Part shown: positions 178 through 54,249 of the stretch, piece by piece
Position numbering within the stretch: position 1 is the first letter of the stretch
How the letters are laid out: each line of letters begins with the position of its first letter
Source of the DNA: Gammaproteobacteria bacterium
Lineage (GTDB): Bacteria; Pseudomonadota; Gammaproteobacteria; Burkholderiales; Burkholderiaceae_C
NCBI GenBank assembly: GCA_018828125.1
Contig: JAHJWB010000017.1
Span: forward strand, 248,001 to 312,000
Direction of reading: 5' to 3'
Length of the DNA stretch: 64,000 nt
The notes under the pieces: model-generated
Told to the model about the DNA's origin: nothing
Seen by the model: only the letters and a program-made list of their open reading frames with translations
Databases searched by the model: none
Program-made: the position numbers and the translations under genes

Positions 178-984
178 TCATTCCACCTGCTGCAGCCATT
201 GCAGTTCCGCATCGGTAAAGCCCGCGCTGCGGCGCGCAGCTTCATTGAAAGGGGGTTTAAGGCGCGGGGCTTCGTATTGCCGCACCAGGGTGCCGTAGTG
301 GGTTTCGGGGTCGTGGCCGTCGCGTTCGCACAGCCAGCGGTACCAGTGGTTGCCAATGGCCACGTGGCCGACCTCGTCGTGCAAGATGACATCGAGGATG
401 GCCACGGCGGCCAGTGCATCGGGCGTGCCCACCTGGCGCAGTTTCGCCTGGATCTGGGGGGTGGCGTCCAGCCCGCGCGCTTCCATGGTGCGGGGCACCA
501 GGGCCATCCGGGCCAGGATGTCGTGCTGGGTTTTCTCGCACATGGTCCACAGGCCCTGGTGCGCGGGAAAGTCGCCATAGTCGTGGCCTTGCGCGCGCAG
601 GTGATCGCGCAGCAGCCGAAAGTGTTTCGCCTCTTCACCCGCCACCAGCATCCAGTCGGTGTAATACGCGCGCGGCATCCCGTCAAAGCGCCACACAGCG
701 TCGAGCGCCAGGTTGATGGCGTTGAACTCGATGTGTGCGATGGCGTGAACCAGAATGGCGCGCCCGAGGGCCGTGGCGGGTGAGCGGCGGGCGACCTCGT
801 TGTGACGCAGGAGTTCGGGGCGCGCGGGGCGACCAGGGAGGGCGCTGAGATCTGTTGGGGCCACCGGCGCGTCAGGCGCTATTGAAAGAGTAGCTGCTTG
901 CGCTTGCAAATCAAGCGCTGCTGCCGTTTTTTGTTCAGGGTCTGCAAGGCACAAGACCTGCAATGCACGGTGGCGAAGCTCCAT
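178..984 (-). CDS. DUF455 family ferritin-like protein
   Basis: ORF with HAIAHIEFNAINLALDAVWRF, AGEEAKHFRLL and HDEVGHVAIGNHWY ferritin-like helices; start placed at MELRHRALQ rather than the upstream ORF start. Confidence 0.85.
   Translation of the reverse strand: MELRHRALQVLCLADPEQKTAAALDLQAQAATLSIAPDAPVAPTDLSALPGRPARPELLRHNEVARRSPATALGRAILVHAIAHIEFNAINLALDAVWRFDGMPRAYYTDWMLVAGEEAKHFRLLRDHLRAQGHDYGDFPAHQGLWTMCEKTQHDILARMALVPRTMEARGLDATPQIQAKLRQVGTPDALAAVAILDVILHDEVGHVAIGNHWYRWLCERDGHDPETHYGTLVRQYEAPRLKPPFNEAARRSAGFTDAELQWLQQVE
878..938 (+). repeat. palindromic repeat family 1, copy a (inside DUF455 CDS, antisense to it)
   Basis: attgaaagagtagctgcttgcgcttgcaaatcaagcgctgctgccgttttttgttcag; diverged. 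Confidence 0.6.
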
Positions 985-18075: not shown

Positions 18076-18089
18076 ATTGCTATACTAAT

Positions 18090-18133
18090 AATAGCTATCA
18101 GCGCTTATTGAATAAGCGCTATAGGCTGAAAAC
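18090..18133 (+). repeat. palindromic repeat family 1, copy d
   Basis: atagctatcagcgcttattgaataagcgctataggctgaaaa. Confidence 0.85.
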
Positions 18134-26812: not shown

Positions 26813-28576
26813 ATGCCCAAACACTTTCGGATGGCCCACAAACTCTGGATGGCGGTGATTCTGATCGTGGTCTTGCTGGTGGCGGTGGTGGGCTTTGCGG
26901 CTTCCCGGTCTGCTCAGGTGCAAGCCCAGGCCGATGCGGTGACCAAGGAAATGGAGCAGCGGGTGCAGGCGGCATTGCGCTGGTCTGGACTTACAGAAAC
27001 CAATGCCGCCAGAACACAAGCGCTCATTGTGAGCAGCGACCCGGCCGTTGAAGCTGAGTTCAAGGACGTGATCACGGCCACATCGGCGCAGATCAGCCAG
27101 GTGCAGAAGTCGCTGGAGTCGATGGCTTTGTCAGACGCTGACAAACAGCAAATGGCCAAGATTGCCGCCGCGCGCAAAACCATGATTGACCTGCGCGGCG
27201 AGGCCCGCAAGCTCAAGAGCGACGGACAGCAGGACCAGGCCGTCACGTTGATCAGCCAGAAGTACAACCCTTCGGTCACGGCCTACACCACCACGCTGCG
27301 CGATTTTGTGCAGCAGCAGCAGCAGGGCGCGGAGGCGGTTCAAAAGGAGATGGCAGCGCAGCGCATGCTCACGGTCAAGATCGCCGCTGTGGCGGTGGGG
27401 CTGCTGTTGCTGGCGATCATCGTAGGCGCGTATTACCTGATCGGCAGCATCCAGCGACCGCTGGAGCAGGCCAATGGGCTGGCAGAACGCATTGCGGGCG
27501 GTGACTTGAGCATGCAGGAGTCGGTGACCCGGGGCGATGAATTTGGCGACCTCCTGCGCTCGCTCTATACCATGAGCAACGCGCTCGGCCGCATGGTGCA
27601 CCAGGTGCGGCAGAGCACCGACAGCATCGCCATCGCCAGTGCCGAGATCGCCACGGGCAACCACGACCTGTCGGCCCGCACCGAGCAGACCTCCAGCAAC
27701 CTGCAAGAGACCGCTGCCGCCATGGAGCAGTTCACCAGCACCATTCAACAAAGTGCAGGCAGCGCCCAGCAGGCCAGCACCCTCGCGGTGGGGGCCACCG
27801 GCGTGGCACGCCGGGGCGGCGATGTGGTGACCCAGGTGGTGGCCACCATGGAGGACATCAACCACAGCAGCAAGAAGATCTCGGACATCATCGGCGTGAT
27901 CGACGGCATTGCGTTTCAGACCAACATCCTGGCGCTGAACGCCGCGGTGGAAGCCGCACGGGCAGGCGAGCAGGGCCGGGGGTTTGCGGTGGTGGCGTCG
28001 GAGGTGCGCAGCCTCGCACAGCGCAGTGCGGAGGCCGCCAAGGAGATCAAGCTTCTCATCAGCGCATCGGTCGAAAAGGTCGAAACCGGCTCACGGCTGG
28101 TGTCGGACGCCGGTGCCACCATGACCGACATCGTGCAGTCGGTGCAAAAAGTGACCGACATGATCAGCGAAATCACTGCGGCGTCGTCCGAGCAAAGCCA
28201 GGGCATCTCGCAGGTCAACCAGGCCATCGGCAACCTGGACCAGATGACGCAGCAGAACGCTGCCTTGGTCGAAGAAAGCGCAGCCGCCGCGCAAAGCCTG
28301 CGGGAGCAGGCAGACCAACTGGCGCAGGTGGTGTCGATGTTCAAGGTCAACGCCGCCAGCTATGGGCCGGCCCAGGCTGCCATTGGTGCGGCGCGGGCCA
28401 CTGCTGCCATGCAAAAACCCGCAGCGGCATCAGCGGGCTCCTCGGCTGCGGCGCCTCGCATCGCCCCGTCGCGCCCCGCTGCGAGCGGGACTGGGGCGCC
28501 TCCCAAGGCGGTTGCTGCTGCACCTCGCAAGGCGGCTGCAGCGCAAGGTGCCGAGGAAGACTGGGAAAGCTTCTAA
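26813..28576 (+). CDS. methyl-accepting chemotaxis protein with C-terminal DWESF pentapeptide
   Basis: MCP hairpin tip [57 protein letters not shown] 26813 preceded by AGGAG. Confidence 0.95.
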
Positions 28577-28770
28577 GCGCTATATCTTTGGCAGCTGCTC
28601 GCGCTCGAATTTGTTCGGTTTCAGATCGTTTTGTACCTGAAATTGTTTTCTGTGAAGCGGTACCAGCTCACTTATTGATAGCTGTACTTGCGCATGCTTC
28701 CCGGCATCGGTAGCCGCGTGCCCCACACGCGGCGTCCCCGTCAGCGGGACGCCGCGATGCGTCTCTGGGT

Positions 28771-29401: not shown

Positions 29402-32053
29402 ATGCCCGCCATAAGCGCCTCTAATGCTGTTCTGCCCCCTTCTGCCCATGTGGTCGATGCGGTGGACATGGAGGATTTGGACGCAGCCCCTGTGCCTGCG
29501 TCTGCCAGCACACCGGCGCGCGGGCCACTTTGGCGGGTGCCTGCCGTGTTGCTGGGGGTAGTGGTGGGCGCTGCGCTACAGCTGCAGCAACCCGCGCTGT
29601 GGATGGCCAGTGTTTACGCCGCTTTGCTGCTGGCAACGGGGTTGGCGGTGGGGTGCGCACTGGCAGTCACGCGGCGGTGTGTGGGGTGGCGGGCCTGGCC
29701 GCGCGGGGCCACCCTGGCGTGCATCGGCAGCGTTGCGGCACTGGCGATGTTTGCACTGTGCGGTTTGCGCGCCGCCAGCTATGCAGAGCAGGCGCTGAAC
29801 CCGGCGCTGGAGGGGCAAGACGTACGCGTGACGGGTGTGGTGACCGCCATGCCGCAGGCCAACGAGGCAGGGACGCGGTTGCGCATCCGCGTGCAGTCTG
29901 CGCGCTTGCATGGCGAGGCCGTGCGCTTGCCGCCCCTGGTGGATGTGGCCTGGTACGGCGGTGCGTTTCGCGATGCGGCGGGCGTTGCCGACTTGCAGCT
30001 CAAGCCGCCGGCACTGCGTGCGGGTGAACGCTGGGAGATGACGGTCCGCCTGAAAGCGCCCCACGGCCTGCGCAACCCCCACGGGTTTGACTACGAGCTC
30101 TGGATGTGGGAGCAGGGCGTGCAGGCCACCGGCTATGTGCGCGTGGGGCCCAAGGACGAGGCGCCGGTGCGCCTGGCCGCCACTTGGCAACATCCGGTGG
30201 AGCAGGCCCGCCAGTCGGTGCGTGATGCCATCCAGGACCAGCTGGTGCATGGGGCGGACGACACAGACCCGTCCCGGGCGCGCATCGCCGGAGTGATCGC
30301 AGCGCTGGTCACGGGCGACCAGCGCGCCATCGACCGCGCGGACTGGGATGTGTTCCGCGCGACTGGCGTTGCGCACCTCGTCGCAATTTCCGGTTTGCAC
30401 ATCACTTTGTTTGCGTGGCTGGCCACATTGGTGGTGGGCGCGTTGTGGCGCCGGTCGGTGCGGTTGTGTCTGGCGGTGCCCGCACCATCGGCCGGCCTGG
30501 TGGCCGGGGTGGTTCTGGCAGCGGGCTATGCGTTGTTTAGCGGCTGGGGCGTGCCCGCTCAGCGCACGGTGATCATGCTGGCAACCGTGGCGTTGCTGCA
30601 GCTCAGCGGGCGCCGCTGGCCCTGGCCCCAGGTCTGGCTGCTGGCCTGCGCGGCCGTGGTGCTGGCAGATCCGTGGGCACTGTCGCAGGCGGGGTTCTGG
30701 TTGAGCTTTGTGGCGGTGGGCATTCTGTTTGCTACCAATCCGATAGCTGCTAGCGCTTATCAAACAAGCGCTAGAGCCCGTTTTTATGCATTATTGAGAG
30801 AGCAATGGGTGGTAACGCTGGCACTCTCGCCGCTGAGCCTGCTGTTGTTCGGGCAGGTGTCGGTGGTGGGGTTTGCGGCCAACCTGGTGGCGATTCCGTG
30901 GGTGACGCTGGTGGTCACACCGCTGGCGTTGGCGGGGGTGTTGTGGGAGCCGCTGTGGAGCCTGGCCGCGCTGAGTTTGCAGCCCTTGACGGCCCTGTTG
31001 TACTGGCTGGCGCAGTGGCCGTGGGCGGTGGTGTTTTTGCCCGCCGCACCGCTGTGGGCAGGCATTGCAGCGGTGGCGGGCGGCGCGCTGTTGGCCATGC
31101 GCCTGCCGTGGCGATTGCGGCTGCTGGCGTTGCCGCTGCTGTGGCCTGTGCTCTGGTGGCAGCCCGCGCGGCCCGCGGTGGGGCACTTTGAATTGCTGGC
31201 GGCAGACATCGGCCAGGGCAACGCTGTGCTGGTGCGCACAGCGACCCACACATTGCTGTACGACGCAGGCCCCCGCTTCAGCCGCGAAAGCGACGCTGGC
31301 CACCGGGTACTGGTGCCGCTGCTGCGGGCCCTGGGGGAGCGGGTGGACGTGCTCATGCTCAGCCACCGCGATGCCGACCACACGGGCGGTGCCGCCGCCG
31401 TGCTGCTGCAACAGCCGCAGGCGCAACTCATGGGCTCGATTGAGGCCGACCACGCGTTGCAACGGCTGCGGCCCATCCAGCCCTGTGTGTCGGGCCAGCG
31501 CTGGATGTGGGACGGCGTGGCATTTGAAGTCTTGCACCCGCAAGAAGGCGACGACGCTGCCATTGCCCAGCGCTCATCGAGTCCACCGCGTCCCCCGCGG
31601 CCCAATACCTTGAGTTGTGTGCTGCGCATCACAGCCGCCGGAGCGCCTGGGGCGCCCGAGGCCGCTAGGCCGGTCGCGTTGCTGGCCGGTGACATCGAGG
31701 CGCCGCAAGAGCAGGCACTGCTGGCGCGCGATGCCGCGCTGCGGGCCGATGTGCTGCTGGTGCCCCACCACGGCAGCAAAACCTCGTCGTCCGCCCCCTT
31801 TCTGGAGTCGGTTCAGCCGCGCACAGCTTTGGTGCAGGCAGGCTACCGCAACCGTTTTGGCCACCCGGCGCCCGAGGTGCTGCAGCGTTACCACCAGCGC
31901 GGCATTCGCGTGGTGGAGTCATCGCGGTGTGGCGCCGCGGCGTGGTCGTCGTCACAACCCGCTGCTGTGGTCTGCGAGCGCGATGTGGGGCAGCGGTATT
32001 GGCAGCACCCGATGTCCCGCGTGGCGGACGGCGCCGATGTCGCAGTGCGGTGA
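29402..32053 (+). CDS. comEC: DNA internalization-related competence protein ComEC/Rec2
   Basis: AHLVAISGLHITLFAWL competence domain plus C-terminal MBL domain (LSHRDADHTGGAAAVLL, VPHHGSKTSSS). Confidence 0.93.
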   Translation: MPAISASNAVLPPSAHVVDAVDMEDLDAAPVPASASTPARGPLWRVPAVLLGVVVGAALQLQQPALWMASVYAALLLATGLAVGCALAVTRRCVGWRAWPRGATLACIGSVAALAMFALCGLRAASYAEQALNPALEGQDVRVTGVVTAMPQANEAGTRLRIRVQSARLHGEAVRLPPLVDVAWYGGAFRDAAGVADLQLKPPALRAGERWEMTVRLKAPHGLRNPHGFDYELWMWEQGVQATGYVRVGPKDEAPVRLAATWQHPVEQARQSVRDAIQDQLVHGADDTDPSRARIAGVIAALVTGDQRAIDRADWDVFRATGVAHLVAISGLHITLFAWLATLVVGALWRRSVRLCLAVPAPSAGLVAGVVLAAGYALFSGWGVPAQRTVIMLATVALLQLSGRRWPWPQVWLLACAAVVLADPWALSQAGFWLSFVAVGILFATNPIAASAYQTSARARFYALLREQWVVTLALSPLSLLLFGQVSVVGFAANLVAIPWVTLVVTPLALAGVLWEPLWSLAALSLQPLTALLYWLAQWPWAVVFLPAAPLWAGIAAVAGGALLAMRLPWRLRLLALPLLWPVLWWQPARPAVGHFELLAADIGQGNAVLVRTATHTLLYDAGPRFSRESDAGHRVLVPLLRALGERVDVLMLSHRDADHTGGAAAVLLQQPQAQLMGSIEADHALQRLRPIQPCVSGQRWMWDGVAFEVLHPQEGDDAAIAQRSSSPPRPPRPNTLSCVLRITAAGAPGAPEAARPVALLAGDIEAPQEQALLARDAALRADVLLVPHHGSKTSSSAPFLESVQPRTALVQAGYRNRFGHPAPEVLQRYHQRGIRVVESSRCGAAAWSSSQPAAVVCERDVGQRYWQHPMSRVADGADVAVR
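30741..30786 (+). repeat. palindromic repeat family 1, copy f (inside comEC)
   Basis: cgatagctgctagcgcttatcaaacaagcgctagagcccgttttt. Confidence 0.9.
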
Positions 32054-33661: not shown

Positions 33662-33817
33662 ATGCTGAGCCGCACCGCCGACCATTTGTTCTGGATGTCC
33701 CGCTACACCGAGCGGGCGGAAAAGCCCACCGCAGGGGGGCTTTCTATAAAACACAGCGTGCGTGCGAAGCACGCGCGGGGTTCTCTGCCCTGTTTGATCG
33801 AGGAGGTTGCATGCTGA
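33662..33817 (+). pseudogene. remnant of a second alpha-E gene (20 N-terminal codons, then unrelated tail)
   Basis: MLSRTADHLFWMSRYTERAE duplicates the start of the gene at 33811, then diverges to KPTAGGLSIKHSVRAKHARGSLPCLIEEVAC*. Confidence 0.75.
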
Positions 33818-34770
33818 GCCGCACTGCCGACCACCTGTTCTGGATGTCACGCTACACCGAACGGGCAGAGAACACCGCAAGGATGTTGAACGTCAGCTAT
33901 GAAACATCTTTGCTCCCGCAAGCCGCAGACGTGGCCCAAACCGGCTGGGAGGGCCTGCTGTCCATCAGCGAGCTGATTCCCGCATACACCGCCAAACATG
34001 GCGAAGTGACGCCCGCCCGGGTGCTGGAGTTCATGGTGCACGACGGTGGCAACCCGTCGTCCATCCTGTCGTGCCTGCGCGCGGCCCGTGAGAACGCACG
34101 TGCCGTGCGAGGCGCGCTGACCACCGAAGTGTGGGAAACCCAGAACCAGACCTGGCTGGAGCTGCACCGGCAACTCCAGGGTGGTGCGTTTGAGCGTGAC
34201 CCGGGCCAGTTTTTTGAATGGGTAAAGTACCGCTCGCACCTGTCGCGCGGGGTGGTGCTGGGCACCATGCTGCAGGACGAGGCTTTTCACTTTCTGCGCA
34301 TGGGCACATTTTTGGAGCGGGCCGACAACACGGCGCGTTTGCTGGATGTGAAGTTCCACGCGGTGAAGAACGATTTTTTTGGCCGCGCCAGCGAGCGCAA
34401 CCAGGAGAGCGATTTCTACCACTGGAGCGCGTTGCTGCGCAGCGTCTCTGCGTTCGAGGTTTACCGCAAGGTCTACCGCGACGTGATCACCCCGGGGCGT
34501 GTGGCGGACTTGCTGATACTGCGCAGCGACATGCCACGATCACTGCACGCCTGCCTGCGTGAAGTGGTGGACAACCTGGCGGTACTGGCCAACGAGCAGT
34601 CGGGTGAAACCCGCCGCAGGGCCGGGCGCCTGCTGGCCGACTTGCAGTACGGGCGCATTGACGAGATCCTGGCGACGGGCCTGCACGCGTTTCTCACCCA
34701 GTTCCTGGACCGCGTGAACGACCTTGGCGGAGGCATCAGCCGTGACTTTCTGGTGACCGCGGGCGATTGA
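33811..34770 (+). CDS. alpha-E domain-containing protein
   Basis: [33 protein letters not shown]...[19 protein letters not shown]. Confidence 0.93.
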   Translation: [319 protein letters not shown]

Positions 34771-34811
34771 GCGTTTTATTGCTCGGTGAAGGACTCTTTA
34801 TTGCGTCCTGC

Positions 34812-34860
34812 ATTGATAGCTAAAAGCGATTGCTGGATAAGCGCTAGAGCCTGATTTGAT
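34812..34860 (+). repeat. palindromic repeat family 1, copy g
   Basis: ttgatagctaaaagcgattgctggataagcgctagagcctgattt. Confidence 0.8.
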
Positions 34861-34893
34861 TATCTTTTTGGATGCAGCCAAGTCACAGGGTGT

Positions 34894-35250: not shown

Positions 35251-35356
35251 CGGCCCAAAGCGAGTTCACCCGTGGAGCTGGCTTTGCCGGGCCACCGGGT
35301 GCGTCCCCCTCCCGCGAAGCGAGAGAGAGGGGGAAGACGCGAAGCGTCTCAGGGGG
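35251..35356 (+). repeat. 3'-end repeat family 2, copy C (overlaps LysR stop)
   Basis: cggcccaaagcgagttcacccgtggagctggctttgccgggccaccgggtgcgtccccctcccgcgaagcgagagagagggggaagacgcgaagcgtctcaggggg. Confidence 0.88.
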
Positions 35357-36266
35357 TGCGTTGCAGGTGTTCCTCGCGCTGGAAGAGTTCTGCAGCCCAA
35401 TCCACAAACGCGCGCACCTTGGCGCTCAGGTGGCGGTTGGGGGGGTAAACCACGTACACGGGCAGCAGGGGCTGGGTCCATTCGGGCAGCAATTGCACCA
35501 GCGTGCCGCTTGCGAGAAGCCGGCTTGCCTGCCAGCTGGTGATCTGGCCGATGCCCAGGCCTGCCACGATGGCAGTTACATAGGCATTGCTCTCGTTCAC
35601 GCTGACTTGGTAGGGTCCACTGATGTCCAGGGACTCTTCGCCTTTGCGAAACTCCAGCGGGTAGTGCCGATTGGTCTGCGGCGAAAAATAGATCACGCTG
35701 GCGTGTTTTTCTTCCACCTCGATCGGGTGTGCTGGCGTGCCTTTGCGCGCCAGATACTCGGGCGCTGCAACGGTGATGAATTCGAGGTTGCCAATGCGCC
35801 GTGCCACCAGCGATTGATCGCTCAATTCGCCGCCGCGAATCACGCAGTCCACGTTGTCGCTGATCAAATCCACATTGCGATCGCTCACCCCCAGGTCCAC
35901 CTGGATGTCCGGGTACCGCGCATGAAACTCCGCCAGGTGCGGAATGATGAGCAGTTGCGCCACCGATGTGCCCACATCGATGCGCAAGCGCCCGCGCGGG
36001 TTGGCGCGTGCGTTGGTCATGCTGGCCTCGATGTCGTCCAGGTCGGTCAACAGGCGCACAGTGCGGTCGTAGTACGCGGCGCCATCGGGCGTAACGGTGA
36101 CGCGCCGTGTGGTGCGGTTGAGCAGCTTCACGCGCAGCCGCTCCTCCAGCGCCTGCACATGCTTGGTCACCGTGGCTTTGGGCAGCGAGAGCGAATCTGC
36201 TGCCCGGGTAAACGTGCCGGCCTCCACCACCCGCACGAATATGCGCATGGCCTGTATTTGGTCCAT
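35349..36266 (-). CDS. LysR family transcriptional regulator
   Basis: MDQIQAMRIFVRVVEAGTFTRAADSLSLPKATVTKHVQALEERLRVKLLNRTTRRVTVTPDG. Confidence 0.95.
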   Translation of the reverse strand: MDQIQAMRIFVRVVEAGTFTRAADSLSLPKATVTKHVQALEERLRVKLLNRTTRRVTVTPDGAAYYDRTVRLLTDLDDIEASMTNARANPRGRLRIDVGTSVAQLLIIPHLAEFHARYPDIQVDLGVSDRNVDLISDNVDCVIRGGELSDQSLVARRIGNLEFITVAAPEYLARKGTPAHPIEVEEKHASVIYFSPQTNRHYPLEFRKGEESLDISGPYQVSVNESNAYVTAIVAGLGIGQITSWQASRLLASGTLVQLLPEWTQPLLPVYVVYPPNRHLSAKVRAFVDWAAELFQREEHLQRTP

Positions 36267-54042: not shown

Positions 54043-54129
54043 GGAGATTTTCCTTTCGGTGGTTTCAACAAAATTCAAGGGGCGCGTCGACCCCACACCC
54101 CTGCTTATGCAAGGGTGCTTCACTCATCT

Positions 54130-54180
54130 ATTGATAGCTGCTAGCGCTTGATGGATAAGCGCTGGGTGGCTTTTTGACCT
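54130..54180 (+). repeat. palindromic repeat family 1, copy j
   Basis: attgatagctgctagcgcttgatggataagcgctgggtggctttttgacct. Confidence 0.85.
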
Positions 54181-54249
54181 AAATTGTCCTCGTTCGGTGC
54201 GGTCCACCGACTGCTGGGCGAATCGGTTCGGATCGGTTCGGATCGGCGG

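Follow-up and report, generated by a model that had tools for sequence, protein, structure and literature searches.

A probable REP-like repeat family of Comamonadaceae with in-frame copies in comEC and other conserved genes

In this Acidovorax genome, a palindromic repeat of 68 nt that occurs several hundred times per genome is present as a complete in-frame copy within comEC. We consider it probable, at roughly 0.6, that the repeat family is old and REP-like, that its copies inside genes lie over tolerant loops, and that their DNA is kept there for a putative function at the DNA level. The persistence of in-gene copies of this old family in flexible segments is well supported. For the hairpin motif itself, we infer a DNA-level role.

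The repeat copy in comEC

The window (the whole analyzed stretch of 64,000 nt) contains an open reading frame that was identified as comEC by TIGR00361 (342 bits) and by a Pfam Competence match. The closest ComEC, that of L039, shares about 88-89% protein identity, which places the host genome in Acidovorax. The gene and the parts of its repeat copy are as follows.

29402..32053, + strand: comEC (ComEC/Rec2), 883 aa, with DUF4131, Competence, and MBL domains
30728..30795, + strand: full repeat copy, in frame within comEC and coding F443-L465; borders from information content and profile
30731..30747, + strand: left hairpin GCTA...TAGC, the best-kept part of the element within comEC
30750..30774, + strand: inner palindrome CTAGCGCTT-ATCAAAC-AAGCGCTAG, with paired cells across the genus

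The earlier note had quoted a repeat sequence from within comEC that leaves the reading frame unbroken, and this sequence was confirmed in the ORF with the frame intact. It had also counted the segment as one copy of a repeat family. With a profile built from intergenic copies only, all in-gene copies being left out of training, positions 30728-30794 scored 59.4 bits (E=7e-17), while the reversed-sequence control reached 6.3 bits at most. The copy in comEC is not attributable to chance. The extent first given for the repeat has to be revised, as the true unit is 68 nt long (30728-30795) and reaches further left. Folding of the comEC-copy strand gave -19.3 kcal/mol (z=-3.45). The segment had been described as lying between two membrane segments, and this fits the AlphaFold2 model of ComEC, since predicted helices at residues 430-445 and 457-483 flank it (local pLDDT about 62).

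The repeat family

The family unit has sharp borders by information content and the consensus ATTGCTAYYAAATTGATAGCTGCTAGCGCTTATCCAATAAGCGCTAGAGGCCATTTTGACTTAAAAT. It consists of a left hairpin (GCTAY...RTAGC), an inner palindrome (CTAGCGCTT...AAGCGCTAG), and AT-rich ends. The two consensus ends are not inverted repeats of each other, unlike those of a MITE, and no conserved flanking positions were seen next to the 68-nt consensus. The inner stem is near-invariant among intergenic copies, leaving covariation unscorable, and double changes in the inner stem within comEC were not clearly above slid controls. No Rfam family matched within the window. Eight copies in the window score at least 20 bits; those other than the comEC copy are listed below.

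877..930, + strand: repeat copy, 27.7 bits
3695..3762, - strand: repeat copy, 48.2 bits
5702..5768, - strand: repeat copy, 59.6 bits; place and length identical in G006, G004, and G007
18076..18129, + strand: repeat copy, 46.0 bits; at the orthologous place in 5/5 Acidovorax genomes compared
34809..34862, + strand: repeat copy, 35.6 bits
48590..48657, + strand: repeat copy, 64.0 bits, the top score in the window
54120..54185, + strand: repeat copy, 41.7 bits

The first 464 kb of the genome (window plus 400 kb) held 66 copies and a further 800 kb of the same genome held 105 copies of at least 20 bits, which extrapolates from the 1.26 Mb sampled to roughly 700 copies per 5.2-Mb genome. Within Comamonadaceae, the repeat was found in 18 of 61 genera. 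For the remaining families of the order, 97 genomes were searched and none had it; among the genomes searched, it is restricted to Comamonadaceae. The copies are stable in position. Over 44 kb syntenic with G006 (89% DNA identity), every copy of at least 20 bits is common to both genomes, and in more distant species copies keep their place and length where the region aligns. The copy at 34809 is missing in G004, where the surrounding spacer is gone too.

Two left halves face each other about 82 bp apart at 28575-28686 of the window, with the usual right half missing. The same dimer-like architecture of facing left halves was seen at L165 7037-7147 and L161 12167-12278.

Genomic position and candidate functions

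The family is mostly intergenic and prefers convergent 3' ends. Copies sit in 18 of 43 convergent gaps versus 37 of 217 other gaps (Fisher p=8e-4), and the second sample (800 kb) had 38 copies in 80 convergent gaps versus 8 in 98 divergent gaps. This preference for convergent and 3' positions, combined with a stable hairpin, is what an RNA device such as a terminator or mRNA stabilizer would show. However, copies in tandem gaps had no clear orientation bias (17 versus 12), and a role of this kind is unlikely within a translated ORF. At the comEC element, a terminator was rejected, as the T-run begins several bases past the stem. We therefore regard an RNA device as improbable.

An uptake-signal-like motif, which would arise in place by substitution and spread by biased DNA uptake with gene length unchanged, would account for the several hundred copies as well as for the near length neutrality and the in-gene DNA-level retention described below. 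It would also suit one aligned site whose score differs, at 6.8 bits in this genome and 32.9 bits in G015, while its length is the same in both. Left halves without the rest of the element, which are enriched but rare (18, compared with 0 in simulation), would suit it too. However, the inner half-site AGCGCTT showed only a modest excess outside elements (117 versus 78 expected), and its 8-mer extensions were at or below expectation; the half-site version of this reading was rejected on these counts. Known uptake signals are far shorter than 68 nt, and we know of no uptake bias in these bacteria. We consider an uptake signal very unlikely.

The genome has one RAYT-like gene, which scores 74.7 bits with NF047646, just under the cut-off of 80, and has one element at its 3' end. 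Among the relatives' RAYT-like genes examined, none had an element above 8.4 bits. A RAYT-mobilized REP was rejected as an explanation, because the element does not flank these genes in the relatives. Separately, the related genome G042 stands apart from the rest of the genus in having about 35 almost identical transposase copies of the IS200 type.

The ComEC loop across relatives

The comEC copy occupies an orthologous place in one deep clade and is vertically inherited. In a quick, midpoint-rooted ComEC tree built with the loop left out, all 45 loops with a strong or weak element fell into one clade of 106 rows, whose deepest row carries the element, and none of the 24 rows outside this clade has it. 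Element presence changes about 10 times on this tree at a 15-bit threshold, and these changes are most easily read as losses by decay. Many ComEC loops no longer have detectable similarity to the element.

As support for an insertion, the earlier note had looked to about 15-20 extra residues that are specific to the lineage and sit exactly at the repeat, and the comparison speaks against this. The loop length is constant in 29 of 29 Acidovorax ComEC orthologues; within the element-bearing clade, almost all loops have 31 aa, versus 26 aa in most other Burkholderiales families. The net difference at the element is +5 aa, not +23, and even this is not a clean measure, because the loop is variable (29-71 aa) in early-branching family members without the element. 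A recent insertion into comEC was rejected, as no close relative has an empty or shorter loop. Orthologues that lack the DNA repeat and carry the same residues, which had been named as evidence against an insertion, were found in a weak form only. The loop of Verminephrobacter L052, LFATNPVADRASASGAIGRFHALLRE, has the same length and similar residues with the DNA repeat undetectable. However, such repeat-less loops of the same length look like decayed copies, because they are nested within the element-bearing clade, and orthologues outside this clade have other residues in the loop.

Changes in length are concentrated in this part of ComEC, which makes the loop a hot spot for them. Loops of 53-71 aa occur in Polaromonas and others (L086, L093, L094, L100, L151, and L152). 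Another, GC-rich repeat is located in the same loop of two relatives, at L077 6171-6302, where it is present twice, and at L118 4237-4280, and it truly lengthens ComEC, giving loops of 78 and 63 aa, respectively. This genome has one copy of that repeat, at L172 13595-13640.

Copies in other genes and protein length

Copies inside genes numbered 8 in the first 464 kb and 6 in the next 800 kb. About 80% of the DNA is genic, yet only about 8% of copies fall there; genes were called in the sampled stretches with a simple in-house codon-usage script. The host genes are comEC, mutL, a double-length uvrA, miaA, an MccB-type carboxylase, anmK, and an FtsX-type permease, and further an SDR, aceE, argF, aroE, lpxK, and two others; the names MccB, AnmK, MiaA, AceE, ArgF, AroE, and LpxK are those of the closest solved structures. 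The element DNA in genes is translated in both orientations and in several frames. The double-length gene (L175 2118-8066) encodes a UvrA of 1982 aa that comprises two UvrA-like halves; the element is near their junction (residues about 1020-1042).

A plain 68-nt insertion would be expected to add 22-23 residues to each protein. A gain of about this size was found in none of the genes compared. MccB has no change at the element, as its alignment with the Pseudomonas enzyme runs over 535 residues without a gap, and AnmK likewise has none, being ungapped against its Pseudomonas homologue. The differences at the element were +4 for MiaA relative to Escherichia coli (negative relative to Pseudomonas), +3 for ornithine transcarbamylase (OTC, argF) relative to the Burkholderia-type enzyme 4f2g, and +5, +9, and about +2 residues for AroE, AceE, and LpxK, respectively, relative to solved relatives. 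Of the 30 family genomes in which MccB was compared, nearly all are ungapped at the element site; several genera have the element's AT-rich footprint there, and the other genera have GC-rich codons. The small or zero length changes and the ungapped MccB site indicate that the element overlies preexisting coding sequence. The small positive length bias fits insertion plus compensating loss, and the exact zeros of MccB and AnmK fit better with conversion or stepwise substitution.

These lengths bear on the proposal of the earlier note that the comEC copy is in the manner of Rickettsia palindromic elements (RPEs), the defining trait of which is a peptide gain of about the element's own length. 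One part of that proposal stands, as a palindrome located mostly between genes also encodes protein in comEC and a few other genes. The insertion-type length gain does not. The presence of in-frame copies in conserved genes besides comEC, translated in either orientation and in several frames, agrees with an RPE-like mobile element whose in-frame insertion into comEC persisted because it was harmless. REPs and RPEs within genes have been described before (PMC3733652), and the GC-rich repeat of L077 and L118 did lengthen the same ComEC loop. However, in addition to the missing gain of 22-23 residues, the copies compared with G006 show no gain or loss. The reading as an RPE-like insertion is already weakened by the length data, and we consider it unlikely.

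Retention of the element at the DNA level

Acidovorax genes in general avoid A/T-ending codons. Inside the element, such codons were kept at higher frequencies than in the rest of the gene in ComEC (0.85 versus 0.29, with 0 of 401 windows as high), MutL (0.79 versus 0.41; 0 of 174), AnmK (0.53 versus 0.23; 0 of 251), and, across the family, MccB (0.46 versus 0.22; 3 of 146). This first test favors the element, because it is conditioned on the codons of this genome. We therefore also used an unconditioned test, which asks how often a site that is A/T-ending in two randomly chosen species ends in A/T in a third one as well, and the element of ComEC again exceeded the rest (0.91 versus 0.45).

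Within the genus, synonymous identity in ComEC was slightly higher in the element than in the rest (0.68 versus 0.61), whereas amino acid conservation was lower (0.58 versus 0.75). No other comEC window combines the two. The peptide at the element is less conserved than the remainder of each gene. At the family level, synonymous conservation in comEC is lower in the element than in the rest (0.45 versus 0.57), and constraint is therefore claimed for the genus only. The left hairpin in comEC is paired in 98% of cells (29 distinct Acidovorax loops), and the inner palindrome is paired in 69% of cells across the genus, compared with 25-45% for slid versions. Judged from these alignments, the in-gene element looks constrained as DNA while its peptide drifts.

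A competing reading at this level is a mere passenger, an ancient insertion in neutral decay whose A/T-ending codons are ancestral remnants. The inner palindrome does decay between species, and detectable similarity has been lost in many loops, as a passenger would predict. However, the retention of A/T-ending codons in the element is about double that of other A/T-ending codons already common to two species, and the left hairpin is almost invariant in Acidovorax. We hold the passenger to be a possible but doubtful explanation.

Proposed history and its meaning

In the favored reading, that of an old REP-like family, the repeat would have entered the ancestral genome early, mainly beside gene ends. 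Copies in genes would have survived only over flexible, length-tolerant segments, and the ComEC peptide at the element would be a plain spacer with no repeat-specific task. The route by which the element came to overlie a reading frame may have been insertion plus compensating loss, conversion, or stepwise substitution. Enterobacterial REPs have been proposed as binding sites for nucleoid or topoisomerase-type proteins. The hairpin motif here may be kept for a putative role at the level of DNA or nucleic acid, for example as the site of a protein of that type; this is the least certain step.

A more far-reaching version, in which a 68-bp signal was written into conserved genes by substitution without any insertion, under family-wide DNA-level selection or drive, appears rather unlikely to us. 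If true, it would mean that one DNA motif dictates unrelated loops (ComEC, MutL, MccB, AnmK, and others) in several frames. In-gene palindromic repeats are usually taken as selfish insertions that loops tolerate. Here, the proteins concerned gain few residues or none, and codon choice hints that the DNA rather than the peptide is kept. Whether the DNA function of a repeat can override codon choice in core genes is testable, and the family offers a good system for it, since the set for comparison is large, spanning many genera with several hundred copies in each genome.

Comparison with known repeat systems

In the literature searched, which covered few subscription journals, we found no earlier description of the family in Acidovorax or Comamonadaceae. 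The REP families of the GTAG and CGTC types show a convergent preference and have in-gene members in DNA repair genes, and RPE-4 and RPE-6 are treated alongside them (PMC3733652); Comamonadaceae genera were looked for in that paper and none is mentioned. The present family is like these REPs in its stem-loop, its hundreds of copies, its preference for convergent or 3' intergenic sites, and a minority of copies in genes, including DNA repair genes (uvrA and mutL here). It differs in its 68-nt length with a second, left hairpin, in its tag position, which is ATAG in 48 of 66 copies and GTAG in 8 of 66, in the inconsistent flanking of RAYT genes, and in in-gene copies that add less than the element length.

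With RPEs, the family shares a genome-wide palindromic repeat that is also found in frame within conserved genes. In contrast to RPEs, the element is old and vertically inherited at orthologous places in a deep clade, so that lineage-specific presence or absence at a site, an RPE trait, is not seen; the net change is 0 to +9 aa rather than a full-length insertion, and the hosts are betaproteobacteria, not Rickettsia. Like DUS/USS, the family has many copies, some within genes, with no large length change, but the element is much longer and its inner half-sites are hardly enriched alone. BRE is about 90 bp long with 69% G+C and at most 29 copies, often in tandem (PMC3110155). It likewise is reported from Comamonadaceae genomes, mostly between genes with some in-gene copies. 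Judged by length, composition, and copy number, our family appears distinct from BRE, being AT-richer, shorter, and far more abundant. On this comparison, we file the repeat as a REP-like family for which we found no description, with a variant behavior of its in-gene copies, and not as an RPE.

Two further repeats were seen in the window. The first, about 110 nt long and GC-rich, is separate from the palindromic family; it is present in three copies (73-182, 1626-1746, and 35252-35359), occurs also in G006 and other stretches, and is possibly related to BRE. A 62-nt direct repeat (89%) at 33662-33723 and 33811-33872 covers an ORF start and the sequence just upstream, as if the 5' end of a gene had been duplicated.
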